A stretch of DNA of 64,000 bases from Cordylochernes scorpioides (Eukaryota; Arthropoda; Arachnida; Pseudoscorpiones; Chernetidae). The stretch is taken from contig CP092870.1 in the NCBI GenBank assembly GCA_030710605.1, forward strand, positions 98,236,592 through 98,300,591. Direction: 5' to 3'. Numbering within the stretch: position 1 is the first letter of the stretch; each line of letters opens with the position of its first letter. Made by a program: the position numbers and the translations under genes. Under the pieces are notes generated by a model. That model ran no database searches, was not told the origin of the DNA, and saw only the letters and a list, made by a program, of their open reading frames with translations. Positions 2,901-63,395 of the stretch are shown here, one piece after another.

Positions 2901-3018
2901 TTTAAAAAGAAAAATTAGTGGCAAAAAATAAAATAAAAAACAATCAATATAATTTTAAATCTCTTCGGCTGTTTCAATGCTCTCTCCTCCCGTAGGATGT
3001 TATAAAATCGAAGCCGCC

Positions 3019-3062
3019 CCTGTACTGATGAAGGGCCATAGTCCGAAACCATAGTATACGGG
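3019..3062 (+). ncRNA. Hammerhead ribozyme motif, family P1, in Penelope-like end
   Basis: Stem I: CCTGTA (3019-3024) pairs with TACGGG (3057-3062), six pairs including one G-U. Core CTGATGA occupies 3025-3031, stem II is GGGC-CATA-GTCC (3033-3044), GAAA is 3045-3048, and a short stem III AC-CATA-GT (3048-3055) precedes A at 3056, the expected cleavage base. One extra A (3032) sits between the core and stem II. Minimal hammerheads with a very short stem III are known from Penelope-like retroelements. The downstream sequence (TTGTTGG... AACTGGTGTTGTGGCTT) recurs beside the sister motifs at 25742-25786 and 48801-48846. Confidence 0.75.
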
Positions 3063-3421
3063 TTGTTGGTTTTCTGAGTTTAGCAAAACTGGTGTTGTGG
3101 CTTATTCTTTGATCTGAATCCGAACATTCTCTCTGCTCAGAATTATCAACAAAATGTTTTAGCTTGGTGCGTTTTTATAAGGGAGAGAAAATTCTTTGTC
3201 TAAAGTCATCGCCTATTTCCCTACAAACCTTTAACAAAGTTTATGTATGTAATACATTTAATCCTTTAATTTTTAATCTCTTATTTCTCGATATATGCAA
3301 ATACGTGACGCTTTACGTGTATTTAGGAAATCGTATATGTATATAAGTAGAAATAGGGATTCAAAATAATCATTTCCCTGAGTGACAGGAAATCATTGAA
3401 ACATCGGGAATTAAATAAATA

Positions 3422-3703: not shown

Positions 3704-6094
3704 ATTGGTTGATGTTGATGTGTTTTTTTCCAAACCAACTTTCAACCAACAAATGACCAACAAAAATAAAAATTATTGTTACATCAGAACTCCATCATAA
3801 GAAATTTTCCAAATATACATATTGACACACCGATGGTCCTTTCTGGAGTTGGTCTCTTCATGTTAGATGAGGAAAGTTAGACTTTGTTGGTTCTTTTAAA
3901 ATGGTCGCTTAGAGAGGTAGGTCTTTAATGGAATATCCTCTCTCTCTCTCTGTTATATACATTCTTAATACTTCTTACCATATTTACATATAGCATCAAT
4001 ATATGCAAATTTTATATAAAATTTGCATGTCATCCTGATTATTTGCATATTTTATGCTCATATAACTTGCAAGATATTTTTGTTGTTGTCAAATAAGTTT
4101 TAATTGAAATAGTTATAAAACGTTAAATAGTTATAAGCTCTTAATAATTTTATTTATAATTTACTACTGTTACGATAGAAGATCAACAAATAGACAAAAT
4201 AAACATTTAATACATGTAGAAATGAAAAAAAAAGTATAAAATTTCTATAGGACATTTAGTTGTCTTTGATGTTTAGCATATTGAAGGCGATTCTAATTAT
4301 TTGGTTATCTCAGTTTTATGTGGAATCTTGATCTGTTAAGATTCTATTCTTAAAGTACTGTAGATAATTTATCTTGGTGAATGAAGGAATTCTAACCGAA
4401 GTTAACCAATCATCAGAGGTATTGTAAATTGAACACAAAGCTTTCGAACAGCTCTCTTCTGTACGTATAAATCTAGGCTAGACGGGAACCTGGAGACACT
4501 GCTGTAGGAGAACAGATATTAGAATTCACGTAATCCAAAAAATGCTTTTACTTTTGTCTTATCGATTTTAGTCAAATTTTCGTGTTTTTTTGTTGTTGTT
4601 TTTTTTTAATGAAACATCGAGTATATTTTTTCATCTACGACATATATTGGTAACTATACTTTATACTACGGGTAGTTGGCGACTTGTGTACGCTACAGTA
4701 GAACCTCCATGAGAGTACATTCCTGCTAGTGGACACCTCTCTACATAGGACAGCTTTCATCGCCAAAATTACCATTTTTTCCATATAGCTGCTCTCCAGT
4801 ACACCTCTTTCTAAAATATATTTTAACTCTACAACTAGGTGTTGTCTTTTAGATATTTGTCTACGATTTTGCATATAGGCTCTTATATTGGATAGTTGGA
4901 GGTTTCCGGGTTATGACTTATAATAAATTGTACAGTACTTGTTGTTCATTTGGTTAACTCATGTTACTGGAGCATGGTAAAGTCGCCAAATACCCCGATA
5001 CTGTACTTGGAATAAAAGATAAAGAAACGTAAGAATAGAAAAGCTAAATAGGCCATGTGTGCTACCCTAAGTACAGTATTAAATTAAAAAAGCATATATT
5101 AAATTTAAAAAATGTAATTACCAATATTTCAGTTGACTAAACGCCAATCTTTTTAAAAGTATTCAGCCAAAAAGCTTTTAGACCAACTGAAATATTGATA
5201 AATAACTTTTTTTAAAATCCAATATAGGCTCTTTTTAATTAAAGATCTATAAGTCGATTGTTCAATTTTCAATAAGTGCAGTATGTAAATAATAAATTTG
5301 CATACCATTGTTTAGATCGAAGTCATTATACCCATTCATATGGCTAAAACCTCCATTTTCTGACATTTTAAAATTTATTTTTACGAAACGAAAAAAAAAG
5401 AAAAATTTAAAAGCTCATTCTCTTATCTTAATACAAACAATAATATTTTGAAGAGGATGATGATAAATTTAATTACAACAGAGTATTGCTATTTTTAAAT
5501 TTTAAAAATAATATAACCATAAGTAATTCTTAAAATTAAAGATACTTCGGCCAGTAAATCTTTTTTTATTGTCTCGACATTTCGACAAAAATCTTTTGTC
5601 AGGAGCGAAATATATTTACGGGGCTGCTAACCAGAATGGATGATTTTTGAGCCCAAAGTATGGCCATTTTCACGTGTTATAACATTTATAAATTAACTAA
5701 ATTGCATACTAATTCTTGTACATATTTCAAATTATATTTCTTTTCTTTCTATGTTTAGTTTACCTTTAAATTGCAAGTGTACCTAGTGGGACATAGCGCT
5801 CAAGTAGAAATAAAAATAAAGATGTTATAGCATTTATTCTATGAAATTATTTATAATTTGCATAAATGTGACACGTGGTAAATATGTTTGAATTTATTTC
5901 TCTCATAGATTTAGCGTGTGACTAAAGAATATCTCAAAATTAACACAAGAAATATAATTATAAGAAAAATTCATCTCCTGATATTAAAACTAAAAGTGCT
6001 GATGGCTTGCGCCATTTGTCAGAATAAATATCAACCAATCGTTGGATTATTCCAGAAAAGCATGAGAAAGAAGCATAAGAAAACAATCCAATAC
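3704..6094. other. AT-rich stretch with decayed repeat pieces, no gene seen
   Basis: Holds microsatellite-like CT runs (3940), a diverged piece at 4693-4860 starting ACAGTAGAACCTCCATGAG that resembles pogo-type ends (a similar piece is reversed at 33410-33555), an imperfect inverted pair at 5110-5225 (AATATTTCAGTTG... CAACTGAAATATT) of the Penelope-like P5 type, and a decayed P3-type motif on the minus strand at 5560-5605. No ORF looks conserved. Confidence 0.5.
5560..5605 (-). ncRNA. Decayed hammerhead-like motif, family P3
   Basis: Minus strand reads CTCCTGAC, then AAAAGATTTTTGTCGAAATG and TCGAGAC. Compared with the intact copy at 24966-25008, the bases completing the CUGACGA core and the first arm of stem II are deleted, so it should not fold into an active ribozyme. 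Confidence 0.5.
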
Positions 6095-8411: not shown

Positions 8412-8779
8412 TAATAAGATCCTGTCGACTCTTCTGTGATATGATCCTGTCGACTTTCAGTGTGGCATTATGATAATAATGTGGGGAGAGAGAAATAAGG
8501 AAACAACAAGTTTGGAAGATGGGACCCAGCAAACCGAGAGAGAGAGGTAGCGCGTGGGCCTGTCACTGCGTAACGCCGTCTTGTGTGGCCACCACCCCCC
8601 CCCCCCCCCCCCCCCCCCCCGACTATCTAAAAATAGTCCGGCAGGGTTCCCATCAAAGCCCCCTCCGGCATGTGGTCAGTCGTTTAAAATGGCCGTAACT
8701 TAGCTTTCTATCGACGTCTCTCTCTCGTTGACTGTAGGTTTACTTTATTATTCCTGGAAGAGCATATATTATGACATAT
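8412..8779 (+). repeat. 5' LTR of the 8.4-11.3 kb element
   Basis: Contains two GATCCTGTCGACT motifs, a CGAGAGAGAGAGGTAGCGCG stretch, a C-run at about 8590-8620 (about 30 C), ACTATCTAAAAATAGTCCGG, and ends GAGCATATATTATGACATAT. Exact ends are uncertain by up to about 20 bases, because the 3' copy is preceded by one extra unit of the CCTGTCGACTCTTCTG repeat. Confidence 0.65.
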
Positions 8780-14815: not shown

Positions 14816-15218
14816 AAACACAAATTAAAATTAATTAAATACAAGAGAAACGCAATGTGAGCAATGTTTACGCAGAGTAATAAAATATATAAATATCTAA
14901 ATTAAAATATTCTGTTAAAAAAAATAATATAAATTTTACTACAATATTTAAGGAAGGAAAAGCTCCATATCTTACTTAAGTGAATTTAAACTGAAATCAA
15001 GTACCATTCTGATGACAAAAACAACAAAAATCATTAAAAGTTTTTAAAATAATTTTGATAAGTGTGATTATCAAACTAAGCTAGATATTCAGTTACAGTT
15101 TAAATAAATATAGTGGTTCAGCGCCACACTTATTTTAAACCGTTTCACAATTTTTGAAAGATATATATCTGACTTATAAACACAAGGTAATAAGACCAAA
15201 TCCAAATAAATAAATAGT

Positions 15219-15262
15219 GTGTGACGTTTCGGTAACAGCGTTGTTACCATCTTCAGACAAAA
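15219..15262 (-). ncRNA. Hammerhead ribozyme motif, family P2, left arm
   Basis: Minus strand: CTGAAGA (15250-15256), a seven-pair stem II GGTAACA/TGTTACC, GAAA, palindromic stem III ACGT and C as the expected cleavage base, then ACACAC. One extra base lies between core and stem II. The two-base-pair stem III suggests function as a dimer or not at all. Confidence 0.62.
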
Positions 15263-15320
15263 GTACTGAATGAGAAATTTTACCACAGCATGGTTTAAAT
15301 AGTTACTTCTCATTCAGTAC

Positions 15321-15367
15321 TTTTGTCTGAAGATGGTAACAACGCTCTGTTACCGAAACGTCACACA
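15321..15367 (+). ncRNA. Hammerhead ribozyme motif, family P2, right arm
   Basis: CTGAAGA (15327-15333), stem II GGTAACA (15335-15341) with TGTTACC (15348-15354), GAAA (15355-15358), ACGT (15358-15361), cleavage base C (15362). TGT before the core pairs with ACA after the cleavage site as a short stem I. Same caveats as the left-arm copy. Confidence 0.65.
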
Positions 15368-15419
15368 CTATTTATTTATTTGGATTTGATCTTATTACCT
15401 TGTGTTTATAATCTATAAT

Positions 15420-24965: not shown

Positions 24966-25008
24966 TTCTCAACGTTTCGACAAAAATCTTTTGTCTTCGT
25001 CAGGAGAA
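24966..25008 (-). ncRNA. Hammerhead ribozyme motif, family P3
   Basis: Minus strand: stem I TTCTC (25008-25004) pairs with GAGAA (24970-24966); core CTGACGA (25003-24997); stem II GACAAAA-GAT-TTTTGTC, seven pairs; GAAA (24978-24975); palindromic stem III ACGT; T as cleavage base. One extra A precedes stem II. A full five-pair stem I makes this one of the best hammerhead folds in the window. Confidence 0.75.
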
Positions 25009-25601: not shown

Positions 25602-25626
25602 CCCCCCCCCCCCCCCCCCCCCCCCC
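25602..25626. repeat. Poly-C run
   Basis: About 25 C residues followed by an A-run, a length-unstable tract similar to those in the LTR pair at 8590 and 11102. Confidence 0.95.
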
Positions 25627-25741
25627 AAAAAAAGCGCTAAAATAATGAATTTTGTTTATCACCTCAGTACAAAACGTATTGGTGGTGGTGATGAATGAGC
25701 CACAACACCAGTTTTGATAAATTCAGACAAAAATCCAACAA

Positions 25742-25786
25742 CCTGTATACTATGGTTTCGTGTTATAGCCCTCATCAGTACAGAGG
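25742..25786 (-). ncRNA. Hammerhead ribozyme motif, family P1
   Basis: Minus strand: stem I CTCTGTA pairs with TACAGG, including one wobble; core CTGATGA (25778-25772); stem II GGGC-TATA-ACAC is degraded to two good pairs; GAAA; stem III AC-CATA-GT; A as cleavage base. Downstream (minus) is the family flank TTGTTGGATTTTTGTCTGAA and AACTGGTGTTGTGGCTCATT. Confidence 0.65.
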
Positions 25787-26049
25787 CGGCTTCGATTTCA
25801 AAACATCCTACGAGAGAAGTTATGAAATAAGTCGAATTTACCATAATTTCTATTATTTATCTATAAACGTATAGTTTTGATTATTTTCAATCATAAGAAA
25901 CATTAATCCCAAAAGAATTTGTTAACATTTCCGATAGCTGTAATTCTAAAAATATATATATATAAATGTATATGTAAATATGTTTTTAAAACACTTTCGA
26001 TTTCGATTAAATAGAAAACGTGCTTTGATTCTCGATTCAGATATATCAT

Positions 26050-33969: not shown

Positions 33970-34220
33970 TATCTAAAGAGACAAAGGTCGCCTCACCCGT
34001 CAAAATAGACGTTAAGACTAGACGCCATCTATTGACCGTCGCCGCAAACTAGCGGCCTCGGGTCGGTGACAAAGCCACAACACCAGCTTTTCAGTTTGCC
34101 AAAGCTGGTGTTGTGGCTTTGTCACCGACCCGAGGCCGCTAGTTTGCGGCGACGGTCAATAGATGGCGTCTATTCTTGACGTCTATTTTGACGGGAGAGG
34201 CGACCTTTGTCTCTTTAGAT
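33970..34220. repeat. Long palindrome, P1 Penelope-like body pair
   Basis: Arms 33970-34090 and 34102-34220 are almost exact reverse complements (GACCGTCGCCGCAAACTAGC, GGCCTCGGGTCGGTGACAAA, GCCACAACACCAGCTTT) with an 11-base centre. Each arm matches the sequence that follows the P1 hammerhead at 48801-48846. Both arms contain GACGCCATCTATTGACC, a form of the recurring AGATGGCG motif. Confidence 0.85.
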
Positions 34221-35619
34221 CAATATCCTCCCGGCAAAATTTCCATGAAAATATCTGTCATTGTCTTTTCCATTCCCATGTTTGATTGACAAAGGCAGTA
34301 CGACACCCTTTTTCTATAATCTATAAGACCTACAAAAAATACAAAGTAGTTATATTCAACTTAATCTGTAATTATTTCTATTAAAATTTAAACGTTTCCT
34401 GATGTTCTCACTACAATTTATAAATATTAAGAGGGGGCCTGGCTCATCAGTGGTGAACCCTACCAGCGGTTTTGCCAGTTTAATCATCCATACCGCTATG
34501 GTATTGTATTAAAAATGAAGAAAGATTTGACGCGCTATTTAATTAAATAATGAGAAGGAATATTTTCCATTATCAACTCAAAAGTACAAAGATATTGCCT
34601 AATTAATTTTATTTTTTAATATTTTAATATACACCACCTATACACGATTATAATAGCAGGTATTTTGATAATTATTAATTATAATTAACTATCAAAACTA
34701 TTGGGAGAGTTGACCTTACCCATACCTAACTCTTACGTCAAATGTCCCATCACATAGTAAACAAACAAATATAATTACAGCAATAAAAAATCCTTTAAAA
34801 CTGAGATGTTTTAAAATATAAACATATATTATGCAATATCCAAGAGAGGAGTCTAAAAAACACATATTTACATAATTTCCATACATAAAAGACCAATCGT
34901 ATGCGTGAAATGCTAATAAACAAGCTCAATATCAACATAGATTTGCATAGCTATCGTCAATATGCATATAAGATTGAGAAAGGAACTCGGGCAATAAACT
35001 GGAACAATGGCGGACGTAGGGAAAAAAATTACAGGCGGTAGGTCAAGCTTATTTATAGCAGACGCCATTGATCCGTTCTCTCTTCGTTTGCCACGCCAAC
35101 TTGCGTATTTACGTAGACATTTATCGTCTGCAATAATAGTTAGCGATATTCTTAACTAACACTTTCCTTCCTTGTTTTACTTGGATATAAAAATTAGCGC
35201 CATCTAGCGGTGTTTAATCCAACTATTTTTGTGATTCTCTTTCTGTTCTATTTATAGAAAGGTTAATTCATTTGGGAACGTTTATAAATAGAATTTTCAC
35301 AAAACCGATTACAAAATACTAAATTGGGAATTATAATTTACATCTTTTTTTTGTGAACTTGATGTACTTTGTACTACTGTATATGTATTCACTGTTTACA
35401 CGTTTGAAAAAAAATTCGACATTACAATTAGAAGGTACCTAAGATTTTATACTTATCTAGGAATTCAATTTAACTAAATAAGTTATCTGGCTTCGCCCGG
35501 GTTCTGGCCGAGTGAATATTAGCCCGACCAAAACAATTAGAAGTATTGACGGTGAGCAAAAATGATGATGAATATATTTATAAAATGAAAGGACTTAAAA
35601 GCACGAATGTTTCTTTTTA
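34221..35619. other. AT-rich stretch with a GAGGGC fragment and a CTCF-like site
   Basis: A GAGGGC-type fragment lies at 34425-34500 (TTAAGAGGGGGCCTGGCTCA). 34975-35150 is less AT-rich (CAATGGCGGACGTAGGGAAA) without a conserved frame. A Helitron 3'-end remnant is seen reversed at 35485-35515 (TCTGGCTTCGCCCGGGTTCT). Confidence 0.4.
35195..35212 (-). promoter_or_regulatory. CTCF-like motif
   Basis: Minus strand CACCGCTAGATGGCGCTA fits the CCASYAGRKGGCRS-type CTCF consensus closely. Binding is not shown by sequence; it may simply be part of a repeat end. Confidence 0.3.
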
Positions 35620-36231: not shown

Positions 36232-36593
36232 TGACAGGTGGCATCAGGACATTCCCAGGCCAACAAGATGGTGCTAGTGGTGAGGAACGACCTCAAGATA
36301 GGCAAGGGCAGGATTGCTGCTCAGTGCTGCCATGTTTCCCTCTGTCTACCGCAGAGCCCTCATCAAGAAGCTCCACATCCTAAAGTTCTGGCAGGTCTTC
36401 GGAGAGGCTAAGATCGTCTTGAAGGCGGACTCTGTGGAATGCATGATGTGTCTGGTGCCCAAGGAGATTGGCATCCTGACCAGTGTCATCACAGACTCAG
36501 GTCACACCCAGATGGCTCCGGGGAGAAAAACTGTGCTGGCTCAGCCCCAGAAGACTTATTGATCCAGTGACAGGCCATCTAAATCTATTATAA
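36232..36593 (+). pseudogene. PTRH2: Peptidyl-tRNA hydrolase 2 relic
   Basis: PTRH2 (Bit1) releases peptides from peptidyl-tRNA in mitochondria/cytosol. From 36265 the sequence reads [20 protein letters not shown], the near-invariant start of the Pth2 domain ([20 protein letters not shown] in animals). After a frame change near 36330 it continues with [49 protein letters not shown], then changes frame again near 36540 and ends LIDPVTGHLNLL before TAA (36591). The order and spacing match the whole 115-residue catalytic domain in one intronless block. The N-terminal membrane anchor is absent, and an in-frame TGA lies upstream at 36232. A processed pseudogene is most likely; two sequencing errors in a real single-exon gene are the alternative. 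Confidence 0.9.
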
Positions 36594-43354: not shown

Positions 43355-43399
43355 GCTGCATACCATGGTTTTGGGCTATGGCCCTCATCAGTACAGGGG
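43355..43399 (-). ncRNA. Hammerhead motif, family P1, GAAA changed to AAAA
   Basis: Minus strand: stem I CTGTA with TGCAG (one wobble), core CTGATGA (43391-43385), perfect stem II GGGC-CATA-GCCC, then AAAA where GAAA is required, palindromic ACCATGGT stem III and A as cleavage base. The single G-to-A change would abolish cleavage. Confidence 0.68.
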
Positions 43400-44017
43400 G
43401 CAGCATCGAGTTCATAACCTCTACGAGAAGAGTTATAAAATCGGTTTGAATTTACCAAATGTGGCTGAATGTTTATCATTGCTAGTAAATTGGTGGCTTG
43501 TCCTGACTGCTCTCGTGAGTATTTTAGATTGGAGAGCGGTCATATGAGGGGACAGCATATGAACTTTTTATTTTTTATATCAAAACCTGACTTTTTTCTA
43601 TTTTTTTTTCTTTTTCACATACACACACACACATACACACATATATATATATATATATTATATAATCTAAAATACAAATATTTTATTTTTTTTTTTAAAC
43701 ATATATTTTATTTTTTCATTCATTGACTGTTCTGCATTTTTGACCATATATTCAAAAAAATATCACTTTTAATTATTATTGTTGTAAATATGTATATTTA
43801 ACCCTACCTATCTTTTATTCACGATTATAGAATTCATTATATAAATTCTATATTCCTGTGATATAAATAATTTTATATGTATATTTTACTTCAAGATATT
43901 CAAAATAAAAATCTGCTTGAAAGGTAAATAATTATTTTTATTTTTCCACGACTGCACCTCTTTTCAACAATCAAACACACAAAAATTTTCTAATCTATAA
44001 CATATATATATATATAT
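43400..44017. other. AT-rich stretch with CA/TA simple repeats
   Basis: (CA)n and (TA)n at 43617-43665 and long T-runs. No gene seen. Confidence 0.4.
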
Positions 44018-46554: not shown

Positions 46555-47196
46555 AAGGAGAAAACAAGGAATTTTGGAAATAAATTAAAATTTAATCTTT
46601 ATATTTATAATTTGAATTCTTGATGTGTGTGTGTGTGTAACAAATGTGTAATGTGTATTTAATTGTGATCAGGTATGAAATACTGATATGAAGTTTTGAT
46701 AATTTGTCGAATGACTTTGTAAATCTAATTTGTTTTCTCATTGATTCGTTTTTTTTAATTGTCTTTTTTTTTTAATATAGAATTTTATACGAATAAAAAA
46801 ATCTGTAAAATAAAATTAACGTTAATATTTAAGTGAGTTATTTTTAACTTTTTCTCTAAGCGTATTGCTCCATCAAATTTGGGATTTTGTATGGAACTAA
46901 ATGGAAATGTAAAAAATAAGGGAAATTTGGGAATAAAATTTTAAAAAATAAAATAAAATGTATACTCATTGACTGAACTTCAGAAAATAAAAAGGCTTTA
47001 AGGTCGCCGGTCTTTTTTTTTTTGAAGGAGATGGAGGAAAATTTGTTTACTCTCGTTTGTCTTAAATAAAGGTCACTTTGTATCAAATGTCTTTCAGAAT
47101 TATTGTCTTAATCCCGATTTTGACGAGAGATGTGACCTTTGCTTTTTATAGATCAACTTCCTCCCGGCAAAATTTCCATCATATTGTATCGAAGTA

Positions 47197-48700: not shown

Positions 48701-48800
48701 CCATAGATTTGGCCCAGCCACTCTACCAGATAAACATCTCTTCGGCAGATTGTCAAGATTTGATTTGATCCCTTGTTGATCTCATGGAATAAAGTCCGCC

Positions 48801-48846
48801 CTAGACTGACGAGGGCCATTAGCCCGAAACCATGGTCTCCAAGTGG
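48801..48846 (+). ncRNA. Hammerhead ribozyme motif, family P1, best core
   Basis: CTGACGA (48806-48812) is followed directly by a perfect stem II GGGC-CATTA-GCCC (48813-48825), GAAA (48826-48829), an eight-base palindromic stem III ACCATGGT (48829-48836) and C (48837), the expected cleavage base. Stem I is weak: AG before the core pairs with TC after the cleavage site, and beyond that pairing is patchy. A palindromic stem III favours a dimeric hammerhead as described for other short-stem-III types. Confidence 0.75.
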
Positions 48847-49026
48847 ATATTTCTCAGTATTCCAAAAGCTGGTGTTGTGGCTTTGTCACCAATTTGAGGC
48901 CACTAGTTTACGGAGACAGTCAATAAATGGCGTCTAGTTTTGAAGTTTATTTTGACAGTAAAGACAACCTTTGCTTTGTTTCTATCAATTCCCTCGCGAC
49001 AAAATTTCCATCTATACTGTTAATGC
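48847..49026 (+). repeat. P1 Penelope-like body downstream of the hammerhead
   Basis: AAAGCTGGTGTTGTGGCTTT, GTCACCAATTTGAGGCCACT and CGCGACAAAATTTCCATC match one arm of 33970-34220 and 63250-63395. Confidence 0.7.
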
Positions 49027-58079: not shown

Positions 58080-58116
58080 CTGACGAAGGCCAACTTCCCG
58101 AAACGAGTACGTGGTT
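58080..58116 (+). ncRNA. Hammerhead-like motif, family P4
   Basis: CTGACGA (58080-58086), stem II GG-CCAACTTC-CC, GAAA (58100-58103), stem III ACG-AGTA-CGT, then G where a non-G cleavage base is required. Structure is hammerhead-like; the G suggests an inactive copy. Confidence 0.5.
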
Positions 58117-61060: not shown

Positions 61061-61109
61061 GAGTTATAGCAGCCACGTTACGGTAGACAGATAGATATCC
61101 AAAGACACG

Positions 61110-61440
61110 GTCTACACGTTAGACGCTGCACGAAGTCCAGTAGTCTAGCACGGTTGGCAGGTCCAACGTTGGTACATTCCGCCAGCACGACGTACATGAA
61201 GAGATCCAGGTTCCTGGGAGCAGTCCGACGGTAGAAGACCAGCCGGGAGAGTCCCAGCTCGTGCGGCAGGTTGAGATAGACGAGCCGTGCTCCAGTCCAG
61301 TCCTTCCAACTGTCCTCCAGGACTTCGCTGAACGTCGAGTCCAGGGACTTGAATCCCATGAAGATATAAGCCTTCATGTCGCTGTTGGGTGGCTCGAGCC
61401 CCTGGACTAGGCTGGTAGTGTCGGATCTCCGTGTAGACAC
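61110..61440 (-). CDS. Internal exon candidate of an unrecognised host gene
   Basis: GC-rich island in AT-rich DNA. On the minus strand a splice acceptor GGCTGGTTACAG ends exactly at 61441. The open frame reads SDMKAYIFMGFKSLDSTFSE then VLEDSWKDWTGARLVYLNLP, HELGLSRLVFYRRTAPRNLD and LFMYVVLAECTNVGPANRAR. Alternating hydrophobic and charged residues look like a folded extracellular or cytoplasmic domain. GT dinucleotides near 61110-61118 could be the donor. The first 40 bases also read VYTEIRHYQPSPG in the frame that would continue from the exon at 62694-62824, so a one-base error or an intervening exon is possible. I cannot name the family. Confidence 0.55.
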
Positions 61441-61474
61441 CTGTAACCAGCCACAGTATAAGTTTATCTTAAAT

Positions 61475-61510
61475 TCCTAGTTCACCTGGTACAGGTCATG
61501 ATAATGTATG
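61475..61510 (-). repeat. SINE family 1 terminal fragment
   Basis: AGTTCACCTGGTACAGGTCA plus TGATAAT, the tail end of the family, directly upstream of the exon candidate. Confidence 0.5.
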
Positions 61511-63249: not shown

Positions 63250-63395
63250 CTTCTTCCGACAAAAAAGCTGGCGTTGTGACTTTGCCACCGACTCGAGTCC
63301 TTTAGTTAGCGGATACGGTACTGCGCCTAGTTTTTGACGAGAGAGGCTACCTTTCTTTGTATAGATCATTATCCTCCCGGCAAAATTTGCATATA
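63250..63395 (+). repeat. P1 Penelope-like body fragment
   Basis: AAAGCTGGCGTTGTGACTTT, GCCACCGACTCGAGTCC and ATCCTCCCGGCAAAATTTGC match the arm of 33970-34220; the hammerhead itself is missing. Confidence 0.65.

Follow-up and report, generated by a model that had tools for sequence, protein, structure and literature searches.

Type I hammerhead ribozymes are recognised by the core CUGANGA, a GAA, the pair A15.1–U16.1 and any nucleotide other than G at position 17. Minimal hammerheads of Penelope-like elements that act as dimers were reportedly described by Cervera and de la Pena in 2014 and by Lunse, Weinberg and Breaker in 2017. According to passages of PMC7761336, minimal type I hammerheads are dispersed in thousands across animal genomes, some of them in Penelope-like pseudo-LTRs, a location also given in part of PMC11167929. 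The repeats that carry type I hammerheads in animals measure 150–450 bp, have a GC content below 50% and are bounded, where target-site duplications are present, by duplications of more than 4 bp (sections of PMC7229834). For these animal hammerheads, excerpts of PMC7229834 and PMC6466107 report a stem III of two base pairs closed by a tetraloop as well as loops of palindromic sequence, by which a pair of ribozymes can cleave as a dimer. The former arrangement is called similar to invertebrate hammerheads in a passage of PMC7229834, which also mentions an axolotl type in which a palindromic tetraloop caps one base pair, and better cleavage as dimers. Double hammerheads in eukaryotes, as a passage of PMC6466107 puts it, require a palindrome in the stem III loop together with a tandem arrangement.

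The family considered here, P1, lies in the window, by which we mean the whole 64-kb stretch of DNA that was analysed. In our view P1 is likely to be an interspersed, non-coding short element, at least 210–230 nt long, present as two diverged subfamilies and carrying a minimal type I hammerhead; its copies are probably those of a decayed, non-autonomous, retrotransposed element. It resembles the metazoan non-LTR retrozymes, as portrayed in parts of PMC7229834, in its apparent size range, its apparently low GC content, the absence of any protein found and its type I hammerhead, and further in the two-bp stem III with tetraloop and in a direct repeat of more than 4 bp, seen at one insertion. It differs from them in that its ribozymes are damaged, its outer ends are provisional and no tandem copies occur within the 64-kb window, which counts against reading it as a retrozyme. 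We recognised no published description of this exact family, a weak negative because most repeat libraries lie outside the text of papers. The kind of ribozyme is already known from animal retroelements, and P1 is a real but ordinary, worn example, adding one more short minimal-hammerhead element to those known.

Hammerhead motifs were located at all four places where the sequence-only reading had put them; these are copies 1–4 below, whose motifs begin at 3019, 25786, 43399 and 48801, respectively.

3019–3062, plus strand: hammerhead copy 1; stem I of 6 bp (one a wobble), core CTGATGA, stem II GGGC/GTCC, GAA, stem III AC/GT with a CATA loop, A17
25742–25786, minus strand: hammerhead copy 2; stem I of 6 bp (one a wobble), stem III AC/GT with a CATA loop
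43355–43399, minus strand: hammerhead copy 3; stem I of 5 bp, stem II GGGC/GCCC, palindromic ACCATGGT
48801–48846, plus strand: hammerhead copy 4; stem II GGGC/GCCC, palindromic ACCATGGT at 48829–48836, C17

The outline common to the four is CTGA(T/C)GA, a stem II led by GGGC, (G/A)AAAC, CAT(A/G)GT and a stem I partner. The ribozymes had been called complete, but each of the four has at least one defect. Copy 1 has one extra A between the core CTGATGA and stem II; two of the four pairs of stem II are broken in copy 2 (GGGC/ACAC, giving G-A and C-A); in copy 3 the catalytic GAA has become AAA, G12 being changed to A; and the inner stem I of copy 4 contains two mismatches in six (A-C and C-A). 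The GAAA ascribed to all four loci is thus present in three of them but reads AAAA in copy 3, and the GGGC/GCCC stem, likewise ascribed to all, holds for copies 3 and 4 but not for copies 1 and 2. Counted by stem, three of four copies are whole over the 5–6 bp of stem I, three of four over the 4 bp of stem II, and all four over the 2 bp of stem III. The core columns are intact in three copies, copy 3 being the exception (G12A), with the extra A of copy 1 adjoining the core. Across the four copies 10 of 11 core columns are constant as against 20 of 47 other columns (Fisher p = 0.004), and across the three copies with GAA (copies 1, 2 and 4) the counts are 11 of 11 and 27 of 47 (p = 0.005), a test biased to an unknown degree because the loci were originally picked by their core motif. 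With that selection bias, the constancy of the core would speak for past function. As they now stand in the window, the copies have the look of ribozymes that have decayed and are probably weak or dead.

Compensated changes in stem I had been put forward as direct evidence for conserved folding, and this argument does not hold. Copies 1, 2 and 3 have one and the same 5' strand, CTGTA, and vary only on the 3' side, by way of G-U wobbles. Scoring 12 pairs in each of four copies gives 48 cells, of which a single one, in copy 4, is changed on both sides; this was equalled by 116 of 500 shuffles, and covariation in stem I was rejected as proof of folding, there being no excess over shuffles. The pairing register itself fares better: 89.6% of the 48 cells are paired in the hammerhead register and 16.7–43.8% when the partner strand is slid by 1–3 columns, which favours the hammerhead register, with the reservation that these sequences also served to derive the structure. 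When each locus was folded, the minimum-energy fold differed from the hammerhead fold in four of four copies. For copies 1–4 in order, the hammerhead fold has energies of −7.0, +2.3, −6.9 and −1.5 kcal/mol, or −11.0, +0.9, −9.9 and −9.3 kcal/mol when other pairs are allowed, and the minimum-energy folds have −19.5, −12.3, −16.1 and −17.9 kcal/mol; the fold z-scores are −1.90, −0.04, −0.68 and −1.54. For the longer RNA 48733–49012 the fold does not exceed shuffles in stability (z = −0.24).

Two further families of hammerhead-like sites are present. The first, at 24971–25003 on the minus strand, consists of CTGACGA, a stem II of 7 bp, GAAACGTT, in which the ACGT of stem III has no loop, and a stem I of 5 bp; it has a ruined relative at 5563–5600 on the minus strand. 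The second is an inverted repeat at 15174–15411, each arm of which carries CTGAAGA, stem II and GAAACGTC; stem III is loopless and stem I has 3 bp. Its two cores are as follows.

15223–15256, minus strand: hammerhead core in one arm of the inverted repeat
15327–15362, plus strand: hammerhead core in the other arm

The pattern CTGAYGAN{8,22}GAAAC has 5 matches in the window against 0.14 expected: three P1 loci, the site at 25003 (minus strand) of the first further family and a doubtful one at 58080. Copy 3 escapes the pattern because it reads AAAA. A strict rule asking for all three stems is passed by one of the four P1 copies, copy 1, the shuffles (n = 30) giving a mean of 0.07 per window and a maximum of 1. 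A relaxed rule, which also admits a loopless stem III and for which the listing of sites allowed slightly wider cores, finds four sites (3019 and 15327 on the plus strand, 25003 and 15256 on the minus strand) against a mean of 0.045 and a maximum of 2 in 200 shuffles. One of these sites is a P1 copy (again copy 1) and three come from the two other families. The hammerhead motifs in the 64-kb window are therefore real, yet among the four P1 copies it is copy 1 alone that passes even the relaxed rule.

Covariance models from Rfam gave no hammerhead match over the whole window, whether at the gathering score or at E ≤ 10, in a scan run without a positive control. On short stretches they found no hammerhead at copies 1, 2 and 4, copy 3 being covered by the whole-window run only, and they also passed over the sites at 15327 (as a short stretch) and 24971–25003. 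The sequence-only reading had named such a miss as grounds for refutation; it is not decisive, since the two other hammerhead-like families were missed as well and the scan had no positive control. As P1 and the two families with loopless stem III all go unreported by Rfam here, counts based on Rfam only could miss families of this sort. A covariance model and one profile were built from the P1 copies themselves and match those copies by construction. Up to E = 10 the covariance model has 13 matches; beyond the four loci these comprise nine sites, of which the best has E = 0.18. That best E value is the one obtained for 58080, which was considered as a fifth member (profile E = 0.0047) and rejected: it has the core order with G at position 17, and is chance or ruin. 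Exact-pattern scans of viral contigs and of contigs from prokaryote genomes each returned 0 stretches.

The copies are part of longer related stretches, some of which have no hammerhead.

2957–3183, plus strand: copy 1, stretch in common with copy 2; outer ends provisional
25627–25850, minus strand: copy 2, stretch in common with copy 1; outer ends provisional; a 25-base homopolymer adjoins at 25602–25626
43356–43458, minus strand: copy 3, consisting of the motif and the part upstream of it, with a different repeat attached immediately downstream
48801–49010, plus strand: copy 4, motif and downstream body; upstream end provisional
33970–34245, no single strand: head-to-head pair of bodies of the copy 4 type, without hammerhead, with the 13-nt direct repeat CATGAAAATATCT on either side
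63261–63391, plus strand: body of the copy 4 type without hammerhead
47105–47178, plus strand: body of the copy 4 type, 3' end only

All four loci had been said to share one flanking body. They are indeed related, since blastn aligns copy 1 with copy 2 over 128 columns (85%), with copy 3 over 75 columns (83%) and with copy 4 over 88 columns (76%), but the shared body is smaller than supposed and is not common to all four. The sequence AAACTGGTGTTGTGGCT starts 65–72 nt after the motif start in copies 1, 2 and 4 (with one mismatch in copy 4) and is absent at copy 3 with up to 3 mismatches allowed. Copies 1 and 2 have more than 100 nt downstream in common; the two together share with copy 4, firmly, only the motif and ~45 nt downstream, so that to speak of one family is to use the term loosely. 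Copy 3 runs into an unrelated repeat right after stem I and has only its upstream side in common with copies 1 and 2.

Leave-out profiles point the same way. A profile of the copy 4 body, built from copy 4, the pair at 34 kb and the copy at 63262 without copies 1 and 2, matched 45 nt of copy 1 (E = 0.0033) and 29 nt of copy 2 (E = 0.012); the part of it beyond GTTGTGGCT found no match in either, and the profile recurs at 47105 (E = 7e-13). The tail of copy 1 used as a query found copy 2 (E = 7e-8), and most of this tail also matched the body at 34090–34241 (E = 7.6e-5). An upstream profile of copies 1 and 2 matched copy 3 (E = 7.8e-5) and gave no match to copy 4. These profiles separate two subfamilies, one of copies 1, 2 and probably 3, the other of copy 4, the pair at 34 kb and the copies at 63261 and 47105; what connects the two is the motif together with the sequence immediately following it. 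A profile drawn from both subfamilies hit nine places at E up to 1, six of them its own input. A single body at all four loci was thus rejected on the basis of blastn and the leave-out profiles, and an element of about 280–300 nt was cut back by the latter to the stretches common between copies, 210–230 nt with provisional outer ends. Over these provisional ends the GC content is 0.37–0.42.

Body copies that have lost the 5' part, two of them inverted, sit inside the 13-nt direct repeat, and the presence of CATGAAAATATCT on both sides of the pair at 33970–34245 suggests one insertion event. Around copies 1, 2 and 4, with their provisional ends, the best direct repeats are of 8 nt, 7 nt and none of at least 6 nt, respectively, which is not convincing. 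The pair also forms a near-perfect palindrome at 33971–34220, its 120-nt arms being the two bodies of the copy 4 type, with a microRNA-like Rfam match below the gathering score. The microRNA-like Rfam matches that we examined (e.g., 34053–34138 and 15232–15353) are inverted repeats and do not count as evidence for microRNAs. The repeat joined to copy 3 has an internal run of A and aligns at eight other places, its positions being 2691, 32978, 43411, 47171, 51806, 52451, 52835, 54116 and 56523. Its ends are possibly inverted (the best 18-mers in three copies match with 3, 3 and 5 mismatches, compared without a control), and it is perhaps a small DNA transposon; at 43411 and 47171 its copies abut broken P1 pieces, the internal position of the junction being much the same in both. 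The homopolymer beside copy 2, of 25 C on the plus strand at 25602–25626, lies next to or inside that copy, and another of 26 C is found at 8595–8620.

The window thus holds the hammerhead motif in related copies, truncated and inverted bodies and one 13-nt direct repeat. If P1 is the interspersed non-coding element that we favour, it would be transcribed, and its hammerhead would cleave the RNA at the base of the two-bp stem III, on the 3' side of A17 or, in copy 4, of C17. A helper reverse transcriptase from another element, possibly a Penelope-like one, would then copy the RNA into the genome, where the reinserted copies would at times be 5'-truncated or inverted.

Of the earlier proposal of a dispersed, hammerhead-bearing retroelement family, the short interspersed copies stand, but membership of a Penelope-like element does not follow from the proteins. 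Outside four tandem-repeat or N regions, the 64-kb window has 99 open frames of 75 aa or more; a Pfam search of them all (E = 0.01) found no reverse transcriptase or GIY-YIG domain, and a crude regular expression for GIY-YIG in the six frames of the window also found no match. Motif-bearing P1 copies are overlapped by three open frames of 75 aa or more, none of which has a Pfam family. Pfam families were found in 10 of the 99 frames: pieces of mariner or Tc1 transposase (six), CAF1 (two), DUF7153 (one) and PTH2 (one).

It is nonetheless possible, and we hold it as a tentative second reading, that in P1 we see a solo pseudo-LTR from a Penelope-like element, its hammerhead placed as is known for that group, and not an independent retrozyme. 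Such pseudo-LTRs do carry minimal type I hammerheads (passages of PMC7761336 and PMC11167929), 5' truncation and inversion are both seen here, and the two other families of the window have a loopless stem III ACGT, much as in the described minimal variants without helix III. P1 is itself like the minimal dimer-acting hammerheads of Penelope-like elements in its reduced stem III and in the dimer-capable palindrome of two copies. It is unlike them in having, where they have none, a stem III of two pairs and a loop, an arrangement that an excerpt of PMC7229834 likens to invertebrate hammerheads. Neither a Penelope domain nor a pair of pseudo-LTRs was seen, and the lack of a Penelope protein in 64 kb counts against the pseudo-LTR. 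That the motif is a coincidence, matched by chance in one ancestor of an ordinary repeat and inherited by the other loci, is very improbable: the empty Rfam scan, covariation no higher than in shuffles and the fact that related loci are not independent events speak for it, but the full three-stem motif is rare in shuffles and, in loci admittedly picked by their core, the core columns stayed constant while the rest diverged.

The interspersed element that we prefer has one feature that differs between its copies. The palindrome ACCATGGT was found at 48829–48836 in copy 4, as had been reported, and it occurs in copy 3 too. An eight-base stem III is impossible within one molecule, where only 2 bp can form, closing a CAUG loop. 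Between two molecules it can be modelled. With the core held open, dimers of copies 3 and 4 (RNA ACCAUGGU) have all 8 stem III bases paired between the strands and lie 11.4 and 12.0 kcal/mol below two monomers; stem II forms hairpins, and stem I forms between the strands in the outer or a shifted register. The copies with ACCATAGT (RNA ACCAUAGU) gain 4.0 and 4.2 kcal/mol, with 0 and 3 of 8 bases paired between strands, and the three sites with loopless ACGT gain 6.0–7.0 kcal/mol, with 0 of 4 bases so paired. When the dimer folds are unconstrained, copy 3 keeps this form and copy 4 pairs part of its catalytic core. As a prediction, the ACCAUGGU dimer follows the double-hammerhead plan, and two such ribozymes may join through a shared 8-bp stem III and cut as a dimer. 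The palindromic stem III had been thought possibly undescribed; its kind is already in print for animal type I hammerheads (parts of PMC7229834 and PMC6466107). The short stem III recalls the satellite hammerheads of newt and axolotl, one axolotl type of which has a palindromic tetraloop as well, but that type has a one-bp stem III in satellite-like repeats (as given in portions of PMC7229834), and P1 consists of dispersed single copies.

The mixture of palindromic and non-palindromic stem III could be a natural test of dimeric cleavage. We regard it as unlikely that it represents two stem III alleles within one family, a self-pairing, dimer-forming ACCATGGT and a non-self-pairing ACCATAGT. 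Were this so, copies might differ in cutting alone or only in pairs, and activity would be set by copy number or tandem arrangement.

Some other contents of the window may be recorded. The DUF7153 frame (61081–61476, minus strand; E = 1.9e-33) and the PTH2 peptidyl-tRNA hydrolase frame (36302–36559, plus strand; E = 7.8e-10) are possibly exons of host genes. There are three tRNA-like genes, two of them called tRNA-Gly; together with the transposase pieces and the CAF1, PTH2 and DUF7153 frames they would fit an animal genome. The sequence TAGATGGC, which we take to resemble the core of a CTCF site, occurs 10 times (at 34160, 34031, 18011, 40140, 46249, 54429, 58202, 59141, 36581 and 35206) against a mean of 1.24 and a maximum of 4 in 100 shuffles, and its occurrences apparently belong to several different repeats.
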